Assembly: GCF_007655305.1 (NCBI RefSeq) | Contig: NZ_VLOG01000019.1 | Location: 168,970 to 207,491, forward strand | Direction: 5' to 3' | DNA: 38,522 bases | Source: Algoriphagus algorifonticola | GTDB lineage: Bacteria > Bacteroidota > Bacteroidia > Cytophagales > Cyclobacteriaceae | Part shown: piece after piece, positions 27,932 through 37,601 of the stretch | Layout of the letters: each line of letters begins with the position of its first letter | How positions within the stretch are numbered: position 1 is the stretch's first letter | The notes under the pieces: model-generated | Told to the model about the DNA's origin: nothing | Database searches by the model: none | Seen by the model: only the letters and a program-made list of their open reading frames with translations | Position numbers and translations under genes: made by a program

Positions 27932-28735
27932 ATGAAGAATCACGTAATAAATCGACTTATCACATTAAACCTATTTTTCCTAATGTCCACTCAAGGTTTT
28001 AGCCAAAAATTACTTTGGAATGAAGAATTTAATTATGAAGGATTTCCTGCTGACAGCAGCTGGTCTTATGATGTAGGAGACCATGGGTGGGGGAACAGAG
28101 AATTGCAATTTTACACCAAGGAGGAATTAAAAAACGCCAGAGTTGAAAATGGAAAATTGATCATTGAGGCACATAAAGATTCAGATTATCCCAAAGGTTA
28201 TACCTCTGCCCGATTAGTGAGTAAGAAAAAGGCTAGCTGGCAATATGGATATATTGAAGTAAGGGCCAAATTACCAGAAGGGAAAGGCACATGGCCGGCA
28301 ATTTGGATGCTCGCAGATGAAAACCGCTACGGAGGCTGGCCAAAAAACGGAGAAATAGATATCATGGAACATGTAGGATATGATCCGGGAGTTGTTCATG
28401 GGACAGTTCATACCGAATCCTTCAATCATGTCAAAGGCACTCAGAAGGGAGCTCAAAGGCAAGTTGACACCTTCAATTCTGAATTCCATACCTATGCAAT
28501 TGATTGGGGTGAAGAAAAGATAGACTTCTTTATTGATGATCAGCTTTACTTCACCTTTGAAAACACCGGAGGTGGGCCTGAAGAGTGGCCATTTTCTCAG
28601 CCTTTCCATATTATTTTGAACATTGCTGTTGGAGGAAATTGGGGAGGAAAAGAGGGCGTAGATGCAAACATTTGGCCACAAAGAATGGAAATCGACTACA
28701 TTCGCGTCTATGAATACAAACCAACGCAAGAATAA
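27932..28735 (+). CDS. Glycoside hydrolase family 16 endo-beta-glucanase
   Basis: The 267-residue protein has a signal peptide (MKNHVINRLITLNLFFLMSTQGFS-Q) and a single GH16 jelly-roll domain. The catalytic motif is GEIDIMEHVG, with Glu141 as nucleophile, Asp143 and Glu146 as acid/base. WPAIWML before it and EFHTYAIDWGEEKIDFFID after it are typical of laminarinase-type GH16. It probably cleaves beta-1,3- or mixed beta-1,3/1,4-glucans outside the cytoplasm. No SusC/SusD pair is nearby and no carbohydrate-binding module is attached. Confidence 0.92.
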   Translation: MKNHVINRLITLNLFFLMSTQGFSQKLLWNEEFNYEGFPADSSWSYDVGDHGWGNRELQFYTKEELKNARVENGKLIIEAHKDSDYPKGYTSARLVSKKKASWQYGYIEVRAKLPEGKGTWPAIWMLADENRYGGWPKNGEIDIMEHVGYDPGVVHGTVHTESFNHVKGTQKGAQRQVDTFNSEFHTYAIDWGEEKIDFFIDDQLYFTFENTGGGPEEWPFSQPFHIILNIAVGGNWGGKEGVDANIWPQRMEIDYIRVYEYKPTQE

Positions 28736-28810: not shown

Positions 28811-29461
28811 ATGCAAGATTACTCCCTGAAAAGACGGAAAATGAGAGCCCTTCTCATCATAAGTGTCTTATTATTATTGATATATGCAAAAAATCTAATT
28901 GAGAGAAGGTCATTTAGAGATATAAGTTCCACATTTACCGAAGTCTACAATGACCGTTTATTAGTGGAGGGATATATCTTTCAGATTTCTGAAGGTCTCT
29001 TTCAGATACAAAAGTTAATTGACCATTGTAATTTGGACTATGATTATTCCAAAGTGATCGATGAAATAGAATCCAACGAGAAGGCCATTCTTCAAATAGT
29101 AGAAGATTTTGAGGCTACTAAACTAACGGAGCAGGAATCTGAGCTTTTGGGAGATTTCAAAAAAATCATTGTCAATGATCTAAGTATCAAAAGCTACGAC
29201 TTACTGTATACAGATAGTGCTGGGGTCAATAGAAATCAAGTCAAACTCTATGATCAAAAAATATCGCAAGCGAGACGTGATTTGGATAACCTAAGTAAGA
29301 TTCAAATGGTCGAGGGAGAGAAATTAATCAGTAAAGCTAAGGTGATGATCAACCGTTCTCAAATCTGGGCTCAATTTGAAGTAGCATTACTAATCATCTT
29401 AATTGTGGTATTATTTCTTCTGGTTTTTCGGAAATCAGAAGAAACGAAAGGAATGATATAA
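28811..29461 (+). CDS. Two-TM protein with a periplasmic four-helix-bundle-like domain, no output domain
   Basis: The 216-residue protein has a basic N-terminus, a first membrane segment (about 13-26, ALLIISVLLLLIYA), about 160 residues that look entirely helical and acidic, and a second membrane segment (about 191-208, VALLIILIVVLFLLVF) with a short charged tail. This is the layout of the 4HB_MCP ligand-binding domain of chemoreceptors and histidine kinases, but nothing follows the second segment. It might report to another protein or be a structural membrane protein. I cannot name a function. It ends inside a bidirectional terminator. Confidence 0.65.
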   Translation: MQDYSLKRRKMRALLIISVLLLLIYAKNLIERRSFRDISSTFTEVYNDRLLVEGYIFQISEGLFQIQKLIDHCNLDYDYSKVIDEIESNEKAILQIVEDFEATKLTEQESELLGDFKKIIVNDLSIKSYDLLYTDSAGVNRNQVKLYDQKISQARRDLDNLSKIQMVEGEKLISKAKVMINRSQIWAQFEVALLIILIVVLFLLVFRKSEETKGMI

Positions 29462-29490
29462 AAAAAGCCTGCTTTGAAGCAGGCTTTTTT
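29461..29490. terminator. Strong bidirectional terminator, left border of the 3-keto-sugar locus
   Basis: AAAAAAGCCTGC/GCAGGCTTTTTT, a 12-bp perfect stem with a 6-nt loop. It ends the plus-strand sensor-like gene and the minus-strand operon that finishes at 29495. Confidence 0.93.
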
Positions 29491-29494
29491 ATTT

Positions 29495-30055
29495 TTACCC
29501 TATTGCGTAGGCCTTATCGCCTTTATTGTAATCTATGCAGCCATCGTATCTTCCAGGCACTTCTACATAATTCAATGCCTGAGTAGCTCCTATTTCAGAT
29601 GAGAAGTAACCCAAAACCGTTAAATCCCGAAGCATATTGATCACTTGAGGCTCTTTATTTTCTGAGGTTTTGTATTGCTCATAGAGCCCATTAAGGTAAG
29701 CCAGTCTGTCCTCTGCCGGAGCGCCTACAAAATCCGTCCCTTTTTCAGATTTAAATTCCTTGCGAATCATATTCAATCCGTCCACAAAGGCTTTTTGTTG
29801 GTCAGCATTATAGGTATCCTTAACCATCATGACGATAAAGGAACCAATGCCAACTGCTTTGGCACCAGGGGTATCTGTCTCAGGAATAATTGTATCTCCC
29901 AATTCATCTAGAAATGCAATGTCATCAGGACCGAAATTCAAGCCTTCAATTTGCTTATCAGGAGAACATCCAGTTAAGATGGCTGTTGCACCAACCATAG
30001 TCCCTCCCATCATCAATACGACGCTCTTCAATGCGTCTCTTCTATTCATAGTCAT
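29495..30055 (-). CDS. Gluconate 2-dehydrogenase subunit 3 family protein (small subunit of the GMC dehydrogenase)
   Basis: The 186-residue protein has a twin-arginine signal (NRRDALKSVVLMMGGTMVGA) followed by a Cys in TGCSPDK that may be a lipobox. The mature part contains DIAFLDELGDTIIPETDTPGA, the signature of the gluconate 2-dehydrogenase subunit 3 family. Such small subunits escort a GMC flavoprotein across the membrane and are needed for its activity (LacC-type and gluconate/glucose dehydrogenase gamma subunits). ATG codons at 30055 or 30049 could both be used. It lies 17 bp after the GMC gene and is the last gene of the minus operon. Confidence 0.9.
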   Translation of the reverse strand: MTMNRRDALKSVVLMMGGTMVGATAILTGCSPDKQIEGLNFGPDDIAFLDELGDTIIPETDTPGAKAVGIGSFIVMMVKDTYNADQQKAFVDGLNMIRKEFKSEKGTDFVGAPAEDRLAYLNGLYEQYKTSENKEPQVINMLRDLTVLGYFSSEIGATQALNYVEVPGRYDGCIDYNKGDKAYAIG

Positions 30056-30072
30056 GTCTTTGTCTTTTAGAA

Positions 30073-31752
30073 TTAGAGATTACGCTTTTTCAACTCTTCC
30101 ACTGCAAAAGCAGCAGCTCTAGCTGTCATAGCCATATAAGTAAGTGAAGGGTTTTGTGCAGCAGCAGAAGTCATCGCAGCACCATCAGTTACGAATACAT
30201 TTTTCGCATCCCACACTTGGTTGTTCCCATTCAAAACAGAAGATTTTGGATCTCTACCCATCCTTGCTGTTCCCATTTCGTGGATACCTTGTCCAAAAGT
30301 ATAGCCTGAATCATAGGTTTGAACATCTTTAAAACCTGCTACTTCCAACATTTCAGCCGCATCCGCCATCATATCTTTTCGCATGTTTTTCTCATTCTCT
30401 TTGATCTCGGCATTCATCACCAATGCCTCCATGCCCCATTTATCTTTTACAGAATCACTCAATCGAATATGATTATCATGATAAGGAAGGATTTCTCCGA
30501 AAGCGGTGAACCCAATACTCCACGGTCCTGGTTCTGTTAAAGCTTCTTTCATTGGTGCCCCGAAGTTTAATTCAGCTACATCTCTATTCCATCCACTTCT
30601 ACTTGCACCTCCTTGGTATCCGAAACCTCTCAGGTAATCTCTTTTTTCTCCATTTAGGTTTCTAAATCTTGGGATATAAAGCCCAGTAGGTCTTCGACCA
30701 AAATAATATTTGTCCTCATATCCATCGATCGTACCTCTGGCACCCAAACGGAAATGATGATCCATTACATTGTGGCCTAGTTCTCCTGAACTGGAACCTA
30801 ATCCGCCAGGCCAAATATCGGTGGCAGTTCTCATCAAAATTGCCGTTGAGTTAAAAGCTGAAGCACATAGGAAGATGATTTTTGCATCATACTCCACTGT
30901 TTGATTTGTTTCAGCATCTAGCACTTCTACTCCAGTGGCCTTCTGTGTATCTTTATCATAAATCAATCTTCTGACAATAGACCATGGTCTTAGAGTCAAA
31001 TTACCGGTAGCTACTGCTGCTGGCAAAGTAGAGGCCTGAGTACTGAAATATCCTCCAAAAGGACATCCTAAAGAGCACTTATTTCTATATTGACAGCCTA
31101 CTCTTCCCGGTAATGGCTGAGTGATATTCGCCGGACGGCCCATGATCCAATGTCTAGCTCCCTTGTAGTGAGCCTTGATTCTTTCTGCTGCATCCTTTTC
31201 GACACAGTTCATTGGCATAGGAGGCATAAACTCACCATCAGGTAGAATATCCAACCCATCCTTATTGCCGGAAATACCTGCGAATTTTTCTACATAAGAA
31301 TACCATGGAGCTAAATCCTTATATCTGATTGGCCAATCCACGGCGATTCCTTCTTTGGCATTTGCCTCAAAATCTACATCTGCCAATCTATAAGACTGTC
31401 TACCCCACAATAAAGAACGCCCACCTACTTGATATCCTCTGAACCAAGTAAAAGGCTTTTCTTCTACATAGGGAGAGTCACTTTCGTGAGCCCACCAGTC
31501 TAGATTTAATTCATTTAAAACATAATCCCTTCTAAGATTGGGATGATTCTCCAACATTTCTTGGGTTCTACGTCCTCTATGTGGAACTTCCCAAGGGGGA
31601 AGTGTGGCAGTCTTATAGTCCTTTACGTGCTCTACGTTAGGTCCCCTCTCCAGGAGCAATACTTTCAGCCCCTTCTCCGTCAGCTCTTTAGCAGCCCATC
31701 CGCCACTAATCCCTGACCCAACTACGATTGCATCATACGATTGATTTGCCAT
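30073..31752 (-). CDS. GMC family FAD oxidoreductase, probable glycoside 3-dehydrogenase large subunit
   Basis: The 559-residue protein has the FAD motif VVGSGISGGWAAKEL (10-24), LLLERG, the GMC segment YQVGGRSLLWGRQS (107-120), and the C-terminal active-site stretch with HEMGTARMG and AAAQNPSLTYMAMT. A cluster CQYRNKCSLGC (Cys220, 226, 230) resembles the cysteine motif that binds a 3Fe-4S centre in FAD glucose dehydrogenases. It has no signal peptide; the adjacent Tat-signal small subunit is expected to carry it out folded. Similar two-subunit enzymes oxidise C3 of sugars and glycosides in the periplasm and pass electrons to a cytochrome c. The substrate is inferred from context only. Confidence 0.88.
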   Translation of the reverse strand: MANQSYDAIVVGSGISGGWAAKELTEKGLKVLLLERGPNVEHVKDYKTATLPPWEVPHRGRRTQEMLENHPNLRRDYVLNELNLDWWAHESDSPYVEEKPFTWFRGYQVGGRSLLWGRQSYRLADVDFEANAKEGIAVDWPIRYKDLAPWYSYVEKFAGISGNKDGLDILPDGEFMPPMPMNCVEKDAAERIKAHYKGARHWIMGRPANITQPLPGRVGCQYRNKCSLGCPFGGYFSTQASTLPAAVATGNLTLRPWSIVRRLIYDKDTQKATGVEVLDAETNQTVEYDAKIIFLCASAFNSTAILMRTATDIWPGGLGSSSGELGHNVMDHHFRLGARGTIDGYEDKYYFGRRPTGLYIPRFRNLNGEKRDYLRGFGYQGGASRSGWNRDVAELNFGAPMKEALTEPGPWSIGFTAFGEILPYHDNHIRLSDSVKDKWGMEALVMNAEIKENEKNMRKDMMADAAEMLEVAGFKDVQTYDSGYTFGQGIHEMGTARMGRDPKSSVLNGNNQVWDAKNVFVTDGAAMTSAAAQNPSLTYMAMTARAAAFAVEELKKRNL

Positions 31753-31778
31753 AAATATGGTTTTTTGGTTTATTAATT

Positions 31779-32657
31779 TTATACATCACAGACCTGCACC
31801 GCCTGGCCAAGCGCAGCAAGTTTATCTTCTGATTTTGGGATAAATTCATGTGAAACAAAGCCTTTGTAGCCTGTTTCCACGATAGCCTTCATAATTGCCG
31901 GATAATAAATCTCCTGATTTTCATCCAACTCATTCCTTCCTGGATTTCCGGCTGTATGATAATGACCAAAGTATTGGTGGTTGTTGCGAATGGTCCTTAT
32001 AACATCTCCTTCATCTATTTGCATATGATAGATATCATACAGCAATTTAAAGTTCTCGCTATCCAACCTTTTGCAAAGCTCAACTCCCCAGGGGGATTTA
32101 TCACACATATAATCTTTATGGTCCACTTTGCTATTCAATAATTCCATCTGAATGATTACCCCATGCTTTTCGGCTTCTGCCAAAACCTTTTTTAGGCCAG
32201 TGACACAATTTTCCAACCCTGTCTCATCATCCATACCTCTTCTATTTCCAGAAAAGGCTATTAGGTTTTTGAACCCATACTTAGCTACTATAGGAATGAT
32301 CTCTAGATAATTTTTCACCAATTGATCATGAAACTTCGGATCGTTCCAGCCATCAGCAATGCTTATCTCTGCCCCATTACACATGGAGCATTCCAAGTCG
32401 TATTTTTTAAGGGTATCCCAAGTAGATGGTCCAATGATATCTATTCCTTTAATGCCTAAGCTTTTTGCTCCAACACAAAGCTCCTCCAGAGTCAACGGCC
32501 TCATAGACCAAAGACAAACTCCATGGTTGATATTTCCTTTCAGAGGGAGATTTTTCTTTTCATTAAATTCGAAGGAACTGAGAGTGCCCAATGCAGCACC
32601 TCCCAACAAAACTTTCTTAAAGCTTTCCCTTCTTCCGGGATTAATAGGTTTGGACAT
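31779..32657 (-). CDS. Tat-exported TIM-barrel protein (hydroxypyruvate isomerase/sugar epimerase-like)
   Basis: The 292-residue protein starts with a twin-arginine signal (GRRESFKKVLLGGAALG, RR at 9-10). The rest is an AP-endonuclease-2-type TIM barrel; metal-site candidates lie in IIQMELLNSKVDHK (Glu), YDIYHMQIDEGD (Asp, His), YFGHYHTAG (His) and FVSHEFIP (Glu). It resembles the hydroxypyruvate isomerase-like family, found in many Bacteroidetes sugar loci. Export suggests work on a sugar in the periplasm. Its ATG overlaps the MFS stop (TAATG) and GMC follows after 26 bp, so it belongs to the same operon. Confidence 0.85.
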   Translation of the reverse strand: MSKPINPGRRESFKKVLLGGAALGTLSSFEFNEKKNLPLKGNINHGVCLWSMRPLTLEELCVGAKSLGIKGIDIIGPSTWDTLKKYDLECSMCNGAEISIADGWNDPKFHDQLVKNYLEIIPIVAKYGFKNLIAFSGNRRGMDDETGLENCVTGLKKVLAEAEKHGVIIQMELLNSKVDHKDYMCDKSPWGVELCKRLDSENFKLLYDIYHMQIDEGDVIRTIRNNHQYFGHYHTAGNPGRNELDENQEIYYPAIMKAIVETGYKGFVSHEFIPKSEDKLAALGQAVQVCDV

Positions 32658-33889
32658 TAGAGGTTATTTTGAGGTTTAATTTTTTCATCCTTAAAAAGGA
32701 ACATGAAAAATAGTAAAACCAGAACTGAAATACCAGAAGGAATTAACCAAATAGACTTCCAATCATGATTTCCTTCTGATAAAAGGTAAAAATCGGATAT
32801 GATGCCTGCCGCCCAAAAGCCAATAAGCATTCCAATTCCATAAGTAGCTAAAGTAATCAATCCCTGAGCAGAAGATTTGAATTTTTCCCCTGCATGAGCA
32901 TCGGTGTAAATCTGTCCACTGACAAAAAAGAAGTCATAACAAACACCATGAAGAGCTATTCCCACCAAAAGCATCCAAACGCCCTCATCCGCATTTCCAA
33001 AAGCAAAGAAAACATACCTCAATGCCCAGGCTAACATAGCTACAATTAATGTCTTTTTAATTCCGAATCTAGAGAAGAAAATGGGAAGGGCTAGCATGAA
33101 TAAGACCTCGGAAATCTGACCTATTGTCATTTTTCCTGTTGAGTTTTCTACTCCTATTTCTGTTAGAAAAGGGCTGGCATTTTGATAATAAAATGCCAAT
33201 GGGATACAAATTAAGATGGAGGAAAGAAAAAATATGGCAAAATTTCTATCCTTCAGTAAGGATAATGCATCCAATCCCAAAACTTCTGAAAGTTTGAAAT
33301 CCCCCTCTGTTTTTGCTTTAGGAGGAGTATGAGGGAGTGTAAAACTGAAAATCCCCAAAATCAGCGAAACTATTGCCGCCATCAACCAGGTATTTTTCAG
33401 TAAACCATCAACCAATCCGGCCTGACTATCCCAGGCGAAAGCAGAAATTAAAATGCCTGCAGCTATCCATCCAATAGTCCCCCAAACGCGGATCACGGAA
33501 AATTCTTTAGCCGGATTCAGCATTTGGTTGAATGAAATGGAATTGACCAAAGCCAGAGTAGGCATGAATAAAATCATGTAGGCTAATAGAATTGGAAAAA
33601 ACTCGCTAAAATCTTGGCTTTGGTATAGGAAATACATCAGGACAGCACCTATCAAATGAATAACGCCCAAAATTCTCTGCGCATGGAAATACCTGTCAGC
33701 TATTAACCCCACTACAAAAGGGGCAATGATGGCCCCAAAGGATTGAGTGGAAAATGCCAAAGAAATCTCCTGGTCTCTAGCACCTAGATTCGCTCCTAAA
33801 AATGTCCCCATTGTAACATACCAAGACCCCCAGACAAAAAACTCGAGAAACATCATCAAGGACAATCGAACTTTAATCAAAGCTGCCAT
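32657..33889 (-). CDS. MFS permease, nucleoside:H+ symporter (NupG)-like
   Basis: The 410-residue protein has about 12 predicted membrane segments. The start (VRLSLMMFLEFFVWGSWYVTMGTFL) and GLIADRYFHAQRILGVIHL in the first cytoplasmic loop are typical of the NupG/nucleoside:proton symporter group, which in Bacteroidetes often sits in sugar loci. It is the first gene of the minus operon, divergent from the Gfo/Idh/MocA gene, and its stop overlaps the start of the exported TIM-barrel gene by 1 nt. From context it probably imports the keto-sugar or another product of periplasmic processing; a nucleoside substrate is possible. Confidence 0.85.
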   Translation of the reverse strand: MAALIKVRLSLMMFLEFFVWGSWYVTMGTFLGANLGARDQEISLAFSTQSFGAIIAPFVVGLIADRYFHAQRILGVIHLIGAVLMYFLYQSQDFSEFFPILLAYMILFMPTLALVNSISFNQMLNPAKEFSVIRVWGTIGWIAAGILISAFAWDSQAGLVDGLLKNTWLMAAIVSLILGIFSFTLPHTPPKAKTEGDFKLSEVLGLDALSLLKDRNFAIFFLSSILICIPLAFYYQNASPFLTEIGVENSTGKMTIGQISEVLFMLALPIFFSRFGIKKTLIVAMLAWALRYVFFAFGNADEGVWMLLVGIALHGVCYDFFFVSGQIYTDAHAGEKFKSSAQGLITLATYGIGMLIGFWAAGIISDFYLLSEGNHDWKSIWLIPSGISVLVLLFFMFLFKDEKIKPQNNL

Positions 33890-34126
33890 ATACTGGGGGA
33901 TTTAGATGGAAATTGGGAGGATTGTTTAGAATTTGGGCTTTTTACCGTATTTTAAGCAAGTCCTTTGACTTTGTGAAATAAGGCGATTAAAAGTTTTGGC
34001 AAAGCCACTCATAACTTGATGCAACTACTGATCAATTAATCCTCTAATTCGGTCTAAGATGTGAGGATTTTTTGCACTAGAATCAATTATTTCAAGAAAA
34101 ATAACCTGAAAACCTACACCTGACCT
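33890..34126. promoter_or_regulatory. Divergent regulatory region of the 3-keto-sugar locus
   Basis: This 237-bp gap must hold the promoters of both operons. I find no perfect TAnnTTTG box in sense for either gene (best on minus: TGGCTTTG). Visible structure: AATCCTC (34038-34044) with its reverse complement GAGGATT (34063-34069), and ATCAATTA repeated directly at 34031-34038 and 34082-34089, 51 bp apart. These are candidate binding sites for a regulator that is not encoded in the window. Confidence 0.4.
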
Positions 34127-35296
34127 ATGTCAACTAACAAGAAACTCAAGATCGGTTTAATCGGAGGCGGACCCGGCTCTTTCATTGGAGCAATCCACCT
34201 AAATGGCGCTCTGATGGATGGTCTTTTTGAATTAGCCGCCGGAGCTTTTTCTTCCAATCCGGAGAAATCCCAGCAAAGAGGTGAAGAACTGATGCTAGAT
34301 CCTAGCAGAGTTTATGGAAGCTATGATGAAATGATCGAAAAGGAATTACAGCTTCCTGAAGAGAAAAGAATCGATGTGATCGTCATCGTTACCCCTAATA
34401 ATGTACACTTTGACCCATGCGTGAAAGCCATTAAAGCAGGCTTTCATGTTGTATTGGACAAACCTCTCACGCTGAATTACCAAGAAGCAAAAGAGTTATA
34501 TCATGTGGTAAAATCCAGCAGCAAAAGATTCCTCTTAACGCATACCTATTCGGGATATCCTATGATTAAGCAGGCAAAGCAAATGATCGAAGAGGGTAAA
34601 ATCGGCAAAGTCTGGAAAGTATATGTGGAATATCCTCAGGGATGGCTCTACAAACTACTGGAAACTGAAGATAACAAGCAGGCAGAATGGAGAACAGACC
34701 CTAAAAGAAATGGTTTGGCAGGCTGCATGGGAGATATTGGAACCCATGCTTTCCACTTAGCAGAGTATGTTTCAGGCTTGAAAATGGAAAAGCTATGTGC
34801 AGATCTGTATATCAAAGTAAAAGGAAGACCTATTGATGATGACGGCGTGGTACTCATGCGTTTTGATAATGGAGCCTCAGGAGTCTTGATGGCCTCACAA
34901 ACAGATACTGGTTTAGAAAATAATCTTAAAATCCGTGTATTTGGAGACAAGGGAGGAATAGAGTGGCAGCAAGAGGATAATAACAGCCTGATTGTTAGAT
35001 ACCCTAATCAACCAGCTCAGATTTTCCGAGCAGGAACTGGGTATTTGGGTTCATTGGCTCAGGAAAACACCAGAACTCCCGCAGGACACCCTGAAGGCTA
35101 TGTAGAAGCATTTGCAAATTTGTACAGGAATTTCGCAAGATGTATCTACGCTGAAAGAGCAGGACAAACTCCTAAAGCAGAATGGGAAGATTATCCAGGA
35201 ATTGAAGATGGAATCCGAGGAATGGCATTCATTGACCATGTATTGGCAAGCACCCAATCAGAAACCAAATGGACTCCATTTATAGTAGAAAAGTAA
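34127..35296 (+). CDS. Gfo/Idh/MocA family oxidoreductase
   Basis: The 389-residue protein has the Rossmann motif IGLIGGGPGSFIGAIH, then VIVTPNNVHFDP, the EKP-like DKPLTLNY and the catalytic His region MGDIGTHAFHLAEY, followed by the family's beta-sheet domain. It has no signal peptide, so it acts in the cytosol with NAD(P). Family members oxidise or reduce sugars and inositols, including the reduction of 3-keto-sugars (ThuB type). It is the first gene of the plus operon; the isomerase gene follows after 28 bp. Confidence 0.92.
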   Translation: MSTNKKLKIGLIGGGPGSFIGAIHLNGALMDGLFELAAGAFSSNPEKSQQRGEELMLDPSRVYGSYDEMIEKELQLPEEKRIDVIVIVTPNNVHFDPCVKAIKAGFHVVLDKPLTLNYQEAKELYHVVKSSSKRFLLTHTYSGYPMIKQAKQMIEEGKIGKVWKVYVEYPQGWLYKLLETEDNKQAEWRTDPKRNGLAGCMGDIGTHAFHLAEYVSGLKMEKLCADLYIKVKGRPIDDDGVVLMRFDNGASGVLMASQTDTGLENNLKIRVFGDKGGIEWQQEDNNSLIVRYPNQPAQIFRAGTGYLGSLAQENTRTPAGHPEGYVEAFANLYRNFARCIYAERAGQTPKAEWEDYPGIEDGIRGMAFIDHVLASTQSETKWTPFIVEK

Positions 35297-35324
35297 ACTC
35301 ATAACCTAAAAAACCTTTATAAAA

Positions 35325-36377
35325 ATGAAAACGATCAAAGGACCTGCAATTTTTCTTGCACAGTTTGCTGATGACAAAGCTCCTTTTAATAACCTGAAAA
35401 ACATCTGTCATTACATGGCAGATCTGGGATATAAAGGTGTTCAGATTCCATCATGGGACGCTCGAATGATAGACCTTCAAAAGGCAGCTGAAAGTAAAAC
35501 TTATGCAGATGAAGTTGCCGGTACCGTAGAAGAAGCCGGCTTGGTAATCACCGAGCTTTCTACCCATCTTCAAGGACAGCTTGTAGCTGTTCATCCAGCT
35601 TACAATGAATTATTCGATGGCTTTGCTCCTGCCAATCTCAAAGGAGATCTTAAAGGAAAAACTGAATGGGCTACCCAGCAGTTAAAATATGCTGCTAAGG
35701 CCTCTCACAACCTTGGATTGACTGCGCATGCCACCTTCTCTGGCGCATTGATGTGGCACACTGTTTACCCTTGGCCCCAAAGACCAGCGGGACTAGTAGA
35801 CACTGGATTCACGGAACTTGCAAAAAGATGGACTCCTATCCTGGATGAATTTGACAAATATGGGGTGGATGTCTGTTATGAATTGCACCCAGGAGAGGAT
35901 TTGCATGATGGAATTACTTTTGAAATGTTTTTGGAAAAAGTCAATAACCACAAGAGAGCAAATATCCTTTATGATCCAAGCCATTTTGTATTACAGTGCT
36001 TGGACTATTTGCAGTTTATTGATTTCTATCATGATAGAATCAAAATGTTTCACGTAAAAGATGCCGAATTTAACCCTACCGGAAAACAAGGTGTCTATGG
36101 AGGTTTCCAAGGATGGGTAGAAAGAGCTGGAAGATTCAGATCTTTAGGTGATGGACAGGTTGATTTTGGCGGAATTTTTAGCAAACTTTCGCAATACGAT
36201 TTTGATGGATGGGCAGTATTAGAATGGGAATGTGCAATCAAGCATCCTGAGCAAGGTGCAGCTGAAGGTGCTCCATTTATTGACGCTCACATTATCCGGG
36301 TAACGGAGAAGGCTTTTGATGATTTTGCCGGTACTGGAGCAGATGAATCCTTCAACAAAAAGATTTTAGGAATTTAG
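35325..36377 (+). CDS. Cytosolic sugar phosphate isomerase/epimerase-like TIM-barrel protein
   Basis: The 350-residue protein is an AP-endonuclease-2/xylose isomerase-like TIM barrel with metal ligands visible in VCYELHPGED (Glu), ILYDPSHFVLQ (Asp, His), KMFHVKDAEF (His) and AVLEWECAIKH (Glu). It lacks a signal peptide. Such proteins isomerise or epimerise sugars and keto-sugars, often next to Gfo/Idh/MocA enzymes as here. It follows the oxidoreductase by 28 bp and precedes the cytochrome gene by 24 bp. Confidence 0.9.
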   Translation: MKTIKGPAIFLAQFADDKAPFNNLKNICHYMADLGYKGVQIPSWDARMIDLQKAAESKTYADEVAGTVEEAGLVITELSTHLQGQLVAVHPAYNELFDGFAPANLKGDLKGKTEWATQQLKYAAKASHNLGLTAHATFSGALMWHTVYPWPQRPAGLVDTGFTELAKRWTPILDEFDKYGVDVCYELHPGEDLHDGITFEMFLEKVNNHKRANILYDPSHFVLQCLDYLQFIDFYHDRIKMFHVKDAEFNPTGKQGVYGGFQGWVERAGRFRSLGDGQVDFGGIFSKLSQYDFDGWAVLEWECAIKHPEQGAAEGAPFIDAHIIRVTEKAFDDFAGTGADESFNKKILGI

Positions 36378-36401
36378 AAAACCATATTTAATCAATTTAA
36401 C

Positions 36402-36827
36402 ATGAAAATTACAAAACCATTAAGCCTTGGAATGTTGGCATTGGCAGGATTAGCCTTTGCTTGTGGAGGGGGAGAAAAATCTTCTGAGAGCGCAGCCACC
36501 GAAACAGCTGCTGCACCAGAACCAGCGAAAGAGATCAGTTTAGAAGAAAAATACCAGGATGATCCGATATACATCAAAGGCTTGGAGAAAATTAAGGCTT
36601 CCGACTGTCAGTCTTGCCACATGGTGGAAAGAAAAATTGTAGGGCCCTCTTACGCAGATGTAGCGGCAAAATATGAAAGCACCGAAGAAAATGTAGCTAT
36701 GCTTGCTCAGAAAGTCATCAATGGTGGTGTTGGAAATTGGGGAGAGGTACCAATGCCAGCGCATCCAGGATTGAGTGAGGAAGATGCCAAGGATATGGTG
36801 AGATATGTTTTGCTTTTGAAAAAATAA
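36402..36827 (+). CDS. c-type cytochrome lipoprotein
   Basis: The 141-residue protein has a lipoprotein signal (MLALAGLAFAC, Cys21), a low-complexity Ala/Glu/Pro linker (about 25-45) and a single class I cytochrome c domain: haem motif Cys69-Gln-Ser-Cys72-His73 and probable axial Met118 in VPMPAHPGLSEED. It is a one-haem electron carrier tethered to a membrane in the periplasm. In this locus it is the natural electron acceptor of the GMC/subunit-3 dehydrogenase, as the LacB-type cytochrome is in LacABC systems. The DUF1080 gene begins 4 bp after its stop. Confidence 0.92.
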   Translation: MKITKPLSLGMLALAGLAFACGGGEKSSESAATETAAAPEPAKEISLEEKYQDDPIYIKGLEKIKASDCQSCHMVERKIVGPSYADVAAKYESTEENVAMLAQKVINGGVGNWGEVPMPAHPGLSEEDAKDMVRYVLLLKK

Positions 36828-36831
36828 GAAA

Positions 36832-37569
36832 ATGAAAAAAAGTTATTGGATAATGACTTTGGCGGCCGGTCTAATGATCGGCTGTTCTGGTCAAAAAACA
36901 GAAGATACCGAAAATACAGAAGTTGTAGCTGAGGCACCTGCTGATGAGTGGATCAGTCTATTTGACGGACAAACCTTCAGTGGCTGGCATAAGTATGGTG
37001 GCGGTGAAGTAGGAAAAGCCTGGAAAGTAGCAGATGGAGCTCTTTATTTGGACGCTGCTAATAAAGACGGATGGCAAACAGGAGACGGGGGAGATATCGT
37101 TACTGACGAGGAATTTGAGAATTTTCACCTGAAATACGAATGGAAGATTGCTCCAAATGGAAATAGCGGGGTCATTTTCTTCGTGCATGAATCTCCAGAA
37201 TACGACTACTGCTGGCAGACAGGCCCTGAGATGCAGGTTTTGGATAATGAAGGCCATCCTGACGCAAAGATCATCAGCCATAGAGCAGGCGATCTTTATG
37301 ACTTAATTGTAAGTAAGGAGGAAACGGTAAAACCAGCTGGAGAATGGAACCAAGCTGAAATTATTGCTGATAACGGGAATCTTACTTTGGTTCTTAATGG
37401 AGTCAATGTAGTAGAAACAACTATGTGGACACCTGAATGGGAAGCCTTAATTGCTGACAGCAAGTTTAAAGACATGCCTGGCTTCGGCAAATACAAAAAA
37501 GGCAGAATAGCTCTTCAGGATCACGGTGATGTGGTTCACTACCGAAATATCATGCTGAAAAAGCTCTAA
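36832..37569 (+). CDS. DUF1080 lipoprotein, 3-keto-disaccharide hydrolase family
   Basis: The 245-residue protein has a lipoprotein signal (MKKSYWIMTLAAGLMIGC, Cys18) and one DUF1080 jelly-roll domain: EWISLFDGQTFSGWHKYGG at its start, FENFHLKYEWKIAPNGNSG in the middle and RIALQDHGDVVHYRNIMLK at the end. The Pfam family is now named 3-keto-disaccharide hydrolase, and members cleave 3-keto-glycosides. It would act in the periplasm or on the outer membrane on the product of the GMC enzyme. It is the last gene of the plus operon. Confidence 0.92.
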   Translation: MKKSYWIMTLAAGLMIGCSGQKTEDTENTEVVAEAPADEWISLFDGQTFSGWHKYGGGEVGKAWKVADGALYLDAANKDGWQTGDGGDIVTDEEFENFHLKYEWKIAPNGNSGVIFFVHESPEYDYCWQTGPEMQVLDNEGHPDAKIISHRAGDLYDLIVSKEETVKPAGEWNQAEIIADNGNLTLVLNGVNVVETTMWTPEWEALIADSKFKDMPGFGKYKKGRIALQDHGDVVHYRNIMLKKL

Positions 37570-37574
37570 GAAAT

Positions 37575-37601
37575 AAGGCCTCTAAATTAAATAGAGGCCT
37601 T
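37575..37601. terminator. Bidirectional terminator, right border of the 3-keto-sugar locus
   Basis: AAGGCCTCTA/TAGAGGCCTT, a 10-bp perfect stem with a 7-nt loop, followed by six T on the plus strand. The minus-strand TPR/SH3 gene ends 6 bp to the right. Confidence 0.92.

Follow-up and report, generated by a model that had tools for sequence, protein, structure and literature searches.

A divergent eight-gene locus of Algoriphagus algorifonticola with the predicted enzymes of a two-compartment 3-keto-sugar route

A divergent locus of eight genes lies in a 38,522-nucleotide stretch of the Algoriphagus algorifonticola genome (RefSeq assembly GCF_007655305.1, contig NZ_VLOG01000019.1, positions 168,970 to 207,491 of the forward strand), which is referred to here as the window. 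Judged from the families, export signals and neighbourhood of its products, the locus probably encodes a route in which oxidation, elimination, hydration and reduction are divided between two compartments, and which needs no ordinary glycosidase. Specifically, a GMC flavoprotein, a gluconate-2-dehydrogenase subunit 3-like protein (sub3) and a cytochrome c would oxidise a sugar at C3 outside the inner membrane. The 3-keto-glycoside would then be split, still outside, by beta-elimination, via either the DUF1080 lipoprotein or an OGE-type protein encoded on another contig (C59) of the same genome, and the glycal would be imported by a major facilitator superfamily (MFS) protein. Inside the cell, one of two TIM-barrel proteins (TIMb) would hydrate 2-hydroxy-3-keto-glucal to 3-keto-glucose, which the Gfo/Idh/MocA oxidoreductase (Gfo) would reduce to glucose. 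The other TIM barrel (TIMa) would act as an epimerase and convert further 3-keto-sugars to the gluco series. Four of these points are what we infer: the oxidation at C3, the cut by elimination, the import of a glycal and the epimerase role of TIMa.

The eight genes, their spacing and the terminators at the two ends were confirmed (Table 1). The reading frames of the window form two divergent operons, and all eight proteins score above the Pfam curated cut-offs for the named families. In the minus-strand operon, 17 bp separate sub3 from GMC and 26 bp separate GMC from TIMa, while TIMa and MFS overlap by one base (-1). The gaps in the plus-strand operon are 28 bp (Gfo/TIMb), 24 bp (TIMb/cytochrome c) and 4 bp (cytochrome c/DUF1080). 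The original prediction, made from the window alone, had described this divergent arrangement with gaps of 1 to 28 bp; its reading frames and families stood, and the spacing is now given as gaps of 4 to 28 bp plus a one-base overlap. Readable export signals are present on sub3, TIMa, the cytochrome and the DUF1080 protein, and absent from TIMb and Gfo.

TIMb points to the chemistry of the cut. Its full length aligns to PDB 8ro4 (residues 1-350 of 350, 593 bits), a structure deposited under the name 2-hydroxy-3-keto-glucal hydratase, and Glu186-x-His188 is kept in all 7 aligned rows. In the operon of Agrobacterium, preliminary evidence indicated that AtHYD hydrates 2-hydroxy-3-keto-glucal to 3-keto-glucose for a Gfo enzyme, according to the available part of that report (PMC10628242). 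An enzyme dedicated to hydration would be expected where a glycal arises, which makes beta-elimination the most likely way of cutting. In a sample of 296 Bacteroidota genomes, the hydratase and Gfo genes lie on the same strand and at most 238 bp apart in 44 of 59 loci. The outline of a 3-keto-sugar route had been proposed in the original prediction and is retained here. Its cleavage step is revised, because the close hydratase match makes beta-elimination more likely than hydrolysis. Both TIM barrels, which it had listed among the eight genes, belong to the conserved set; the cytoplasmic one, left without a role, is the hydratase match, and the exported one resembles an epimerase rather than a cutting enzyme.

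Relatives about 72% identical to TIMb are encoded on plasmids of Agrobacterium and Rhizobium (L098, L099), where ABC sugar importers and Gfo-type enzymes accompany them. These stretches have no annotated GMC gene, so the hydratase also travels with a cytoplasmic set-up. For the Gfo protein, the NCBIfam model of levoglucosan dehydrogenase gave 123 bits against a cut-off of 650, and BT_2158_fam and BT_2159_fam gave 32 of 750 and 20 of 650 bits, respectively. Levoglucosan and inositol pathways were rejected as assignments for the locus, as the NCBIfam scores are far under the cut-offs.

The GMC protein has the residues of an iron-sulfur flavoprotein dehydrogenase. Cys220, Cys226 and Cys230 align to the 3Fe-4S ligands Cys212, Cys218 and Cys222 of BcGDH, and His491 and Asn534 to its catalytic pair His476 and Asn519; these cysteines and the His/Asn pair are conserved in 81 aligned rows. 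The protein has no signal of its own. In sub3, the twin arginines R5/R6 and the lipobox Cys30 do not vary among 22 aligned rows. Such conservation fits a Tat partner that would carry a signal-less GMC protein across the membrane, and TatC is encoded in the genome. The cytochrome c has 141 residues, a single CxxCH motif (C69-H73) and a lipobox. A 3Fe-4S GMC protein with a His/Asn pair and a small subunit with a Tat signal recalls the Burkholderia FAD glucose dehydrogenase (FADGDH) and the Gluconobacter fructose dehydrogenase as described in the accessible text of PMC6719666. However, the match of the window GMC to Burkholderia FADGDH reaches only about 113 bits, and the FAD-binding His105 of the latter aligns to Leu. 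Moreover, FADGDH has a tri-haem subunit, whereas the window cytochrome has one haem and is a separate lipoprotein, and thus is not of the tri-haem type. Oxidation of glycosides at C3 by the GMC complex is suggested by the neighbouring genes.

Conservation of the gene set was examined in the best 80 of at least 586 confirmed GMC stretches in named genomes, and the counts of all eight genes refer to the 70 loci with enough flanking sequence. All eight genes are present in 46 of these 70, which indicates that their association is more than chance and that the gene order, compared as the original prediction had proposed, is not unique to this genome. Its view of an exported GMC/sub3/cytochrome c complex, a DUF1080 protein and a Gfo reductase as a conserved set, serving a route without a classical glycosidase, is thus supported. 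Of the 70 loci, 57 belong to the subset L014-L076, assigned to Cyclobacteriaceae by record title or tree label. All 57 have DUF1080, GMC and sub3; 56 have the cytochrome, the hydratase and the MFS gene, 55 have Gfo, 48 have TIMa and 32 have the OGE-type gene. Both TIMa and the OGE-type gene are missing from nine loci of Cyclobacterium, Lunatimonas and kin, and two Fulvivirga loci hold TIMa, GMC and sub3 only. The window GMC is 96% identical to those of A. limi and A. kandeliae, and a four-protein tree placed the window beside A. marincola, A. formosus, A. limi and A. kandeliae.

More distant clusters on plasmids of Hymenobacter, Xanthomonas, Paracoccus and Halomonas encode GMC proteins 66-70% and hydratases about 60-76% identical to those of the window, while their DUF1080 proteins are merely 25-29% identical. 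In the Paracoccus cluster, an ABC importer replaces the MFS gene; the Halomonas stretch is unannotated and reads with frame breaks. Of the 296 sampled genomes, 57 have the hydratase (≥65% identity), 72 have TIMa (E ≤ 1e-60) and 85 have GMC (E ≤ 1e-150); GMC was present in all 57 hydratase genomes and all 72 TIMa genomes. The rows used were 59 for the hydratase, 74 for TIMa and 70 of 94 for Gfo, the other 24 coming from genomes without a hydratase at ≥65% identity. A GMC gene lies within 12 kb of the hydratase gene in at least 32 of 59 rows and within 6 kb of TIMa in at least 22 of 74.

A ninth gene in the relatives also points to elimination. In 38 of the 80 related loci, sub3 is directly followed by a TIM-barrel gene whose product has a twin-arginine N-terminus. 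The residues His132, His134, Asp163, His189 and Glu233 of AtOGE are unchanged in all 41 aligned rows (the 38 loci and three plasmid relatives). The A. aquaeductus protein scores 71 bits to PDB 8bvk, which is taken as AtOGE because the residue numbers fit the available part of the paper (PMC10628242), and matches 8tcd and its kin more strongly (108 bits). OGE-type genes are also present in the plasmid clusters of Hymenobacter, Xanthomonas, Paracoccus and Halomonas. Mapped on a quick 67-row tree, the ninth gene requires 10 changes between presence and absence, at least 9 of them forced by well-supported branches, and has thus been lost or gained several times. None of the seven rows closest to the window has it. 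In the window, the DUF1080 protein or the C59 protein would therefore have to make the cut. The latter is an OGE-type lipoprotein with an HNHD motif, 29% identical to the A. aquaeductus copy.

TIMa looks like an exported 3-keto-sugar epimerase, as far as its sequence and predicted fold indicate. Its only family match is PF01261 ("AP_endonuc_2"), and the twin arginines R9 and R10 together with E172, D208, H234 and E271 are invariant in 25 rows. The leading Foldseek neighbours are epimerases or isomerases. Since the list also holds chains of C-glycoside-cleaving enzymes (DgpB-C at rank 6, 8qrz at rank 30), fold alone does not decide the role. TIMa was the first candidate for the beta-eliminase and was set aside, as it lacks the His-x-His motif and its leading fold neighbours are epimerases or isomerases; matched by motif and strand order rather than by structural overlay, it has Glu172-Leu-Leu174 where AtOGE has His132-x-His134. 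The DUF1080 lipoprotein scores 176 bits to PF06439 against a cut-off of 26.8, and its PDB relatives are 4jqt, 3osd and 8tda. The MFS protein contains 12 hydrophobic 19-mers.

Several points weigh against a route through elimination. No locus protein has a known activity and all roles are predicted; the function of AtHYD is itself termed preliminary in the available text (PMC10628242); the fold comparison of sub3 gave no firm match; the phylum-wide co-occurrence counts ignore kinship; and the OGE-type gene is absent from the window and from 42 of the 80 loci, some of which are ended by contig ends. Furthermore, the DUF1080 protein may hydrolyse its substrate, because PF06439 is a named hydrolase family and BT2157 is called a 3-ketotrehalose hydrolase in the accessible part of PMC9007349. 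The 3-keto-glycoside would then be hydrolysed in the periplasm and 3-keto-glucose imported and reduced, while the hydratase would merely rescue glycal eliminated spontaneously. This scheme fits the constancy of DUF1080 in the Cyclobacteriaceae subset, where OGE and TIMa are less regular. However, the hydratase is missing from only one of those 57 loci and adjoins Gfo across the phylum sample, which would be odd for a rescue enzyme, and the recurrence of OGE-type genes among the 80 loci also argues against it. We regard hydrolysis as unlikely, but as the most serious competitor of the elimination route.

Cutting could also take place in the cytoplasm, because LgdB2, the hydratase of a levoglucosan pathway, has low eliminase activity besides hydration according to the available text of PMC7676230. 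Intact 3-keto-glycosides would in this case be imported and cut by a bifunctional TIMb, and the DUF1080 protein would serve another substrate. TIMb indeed has Glu-x-His where CGEs have the metal-binding Glu and the catalytic His. On the other side, the export signals on the DUF1080 protein and on the OGE-type protein of the relatives put the cutters outside, and the putative AtHYD was inactive on 3-keto-phlorizin in the part of PMC10628242 available; this alternative thus appears quite improbable. Less probable by far is a pathway for cyclitols or other non-glycosides, in which GMC would oxidise an inositol-like alcohol, TIMb would dehydrate an inosose and Gfo would act as inositol dehydrogenase. 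This reading draws on NCBIfam matches: TIMb scores 63 bits to the model of myo-inosose-2 dehydratase (cut-off 290), and Gfo scores 72 bits to that of inositol 2-dehydrogenase (cut-off 355). Both scores are far under the cut-offs, and the TIMb match to 8ro4 and the constancy of DUF1080 also weigh against it.

The two-compartment route combines features of several known systems. In Caulobacter crescentus, lacABC, a DUF1080 gene (CCNA_01705), a transporter, two "sugar epimerases" and a sugar reductase matter for lactose use (Price 2022, PMC9007349, as far as its text was available). The gene kinds are the same as here, compared by description only and not by sequence identity. The accessible text linked LacABC and DUF1080, reported similar clusters in Algoriphagus aquaeductus T4 and Indibacter alkaliphilus LW1, and left open how the 3-keto-sugar that LacABC and DUF1080 produce is processed further; unlike the present reading, it assigns no hydratase or eliminase role. 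The genomes of A. aquaeductus T4 (L030) and I. alkaliphilus LW1 (L045) carry the locus plus the ninth, OGE-type gene; these loci were equated with the published clusters by genome name, not by the figure in the paper. The order of oxidation, elimination, hydration and reduction resembles GlycDH-AtOGE-AtHYD-Gfo of Agrobacterium tumefaciens (PMC10628242, available part). In contrast to that pathway, the oxidase and cutter of the window carry export signals or have an exported partner, a cytochrome and an MFS protein are added, and the OGE gene is absent. The levoglucosan pathway LgdA-B1-B2-C of Bacillus smithii has the same four steps with TIM-barrel and Gfo-type enzymes, but LgdA is NAD-linked there (accessible text of PMC7676230). 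The Bacteroides BT2157-BT2160 systems share the idea of a periplasmic glycoside 3-dehydrogenase with DUF1080 (PMC11300592, in the portion available), whereas the first oxidation here would be flavin-linked and the Gfo protein scores below the BT_2158 and BT_2159 cut-offs.

The association of LacABC with DUF1080 is therefore already in print, and the additions made here would be roles for both TIM barrels and a division of the route over two compartments. A literature search, which covered mostly listings and leaves room for such a paper, surfaced none on a two-compartment route. Naming the matching "epimerase" as a likely glucal hydratase, together with the OGE-type genes of relatives, would join LacABC to the elimination and hydration pathways. 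If lactose or glycoside use is predicted solely from glycosidase genes, the route could be overlooked in bacteria that carry it.

The genome has a single hydratase match and, with 6 of 24 candidates scored, a single Gfo match at E ≤ 1e-80, set against five PF13618 matches, ten matches to PF06439 spread over nine frames and no fewer than four GMC homologues at E ≤ 1e-150. Several outer oxidases and cutters could thus share one inner pair. As a tentative extension, somewhat doubtful at present, the imported currency may be the enone 2-hydroxy-3-keto-glycal rather than a sugar: a respiratory oxidase and several kinds of exported cutter (DUF1080, OGE-type) would feed one glycal importer (Nuc_H_symport) and one cytoplasmic hydratase-reductase pair serving many glycosides, with TIMa as a periplasmic 3-keto-sugar epimerase that would broaden the range of sugars entering.

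Further GMC and subunit-3 pairs are found on contig C1 (L101:7714-10017, GMC 58% identical to that of the window) and contig C63 (L103:2891-5153, 49%), the latter after an alpha-L-fucosidase gene. On contig C28 (L117:3442-6200), a GMC gene without subunit 3 stands beside a gene for a TIM barrel of the AP_endonuc_2 family whose N-terminus resembles a signal. DUF1080 genes beside signal-bearing Gfo/Idh/MocA genes, nearer the BT2157-type arrangement, occur at L107:5707-8152, L108:187-2894 and L109:7943-10690. On contig C43 (L111:4236-13188), two proteins, one matching DUF1080 and the other with weak C-terminal similarity to cytochrome c, are encoded ahead of a SusD/SusC-like gene pair.

Table 1 Features of the eight-gene locus (window positions).
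Feature	Position	Strand	Evidence or remark
Terminator-like stem, MFS operon end, between convergent genes	29461..29490	+	Scored on + only; stem A6 start, T6 end
sub3, gluconate-2-dehydrogenase subunit 3-like, predicted Tat lipoprotein, likely export partner of GMC	29495..30055	-	PF13618, 120 bits
GMC flavoprotein, predicted glycoside 3-dehydrogenase catalytic subunit	30073..31752	-	PF00732/PF05199
TIMa, exported TIM barrel, likely metal-dependent 3-keto-sugar epimerase/isomerase	31779..32657	-	PF01261
MFS protein, predicted importer of cleaved sugar product	32657..33889	-	Nuc_H_symport PF03825, 393 bits
Divergent promoter spacer, 237 bp	33890..34126	.	Alignment of 63 spacers
Gfo/Idh/MocA oxidoreductase, no signal, predicted cytoplasmic 3-keto-glucose reductase	34127..35296	+	PDB 3v5n, 369 bits
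TIMb, predicted cytoplasmic 2-hydroxy-3-keto-glucal hydratase	35325..36377	+	PDB 8ro4, 593 bits
Mono-haem cytochrome c lipoprotein, predicted electron acceptor of oxidase	36402..36827	+	PF00034
DUF1080 lipoprotein (3-keto-disaccharide hydrolase family), candidate cutting enzyme	36832..37569	+	PF06439, 176 bits
Terminator-like stem, Gfo operon end	37575..37601	Both strands scored	Terminator scan

The two stems had been described as bidirectional terminators; this held for the right stem, scored on both strands, while the left one scored on the plus strand only. The scan returned 12 sites against 9.3 ± 3.2 expected, so the stems taken alone are weak evidence. A sigma-70 scan was uninformative (26 sites against 23.2 ± 4.7 expected). 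The 63 aligned spacers share a short conserved AT-rich stretch near 33926-33955, and no operator was found in this alignment. The earlier statement that a SusC/SusD pair is missing holds for SusD, as the genome's 13 SusD_RagB match rows all fall on contigs other than that of the window (C11); SusC was not searched. The gene-by-gene survey covered the window beyond 1-26374. A GH16 gene (27932-28735) and a gene for a 4HB_MCP_1 membrane protein (28811-29461), which are not counted in the locus, adjoin it here and likewise in many Algoriphagus loci.

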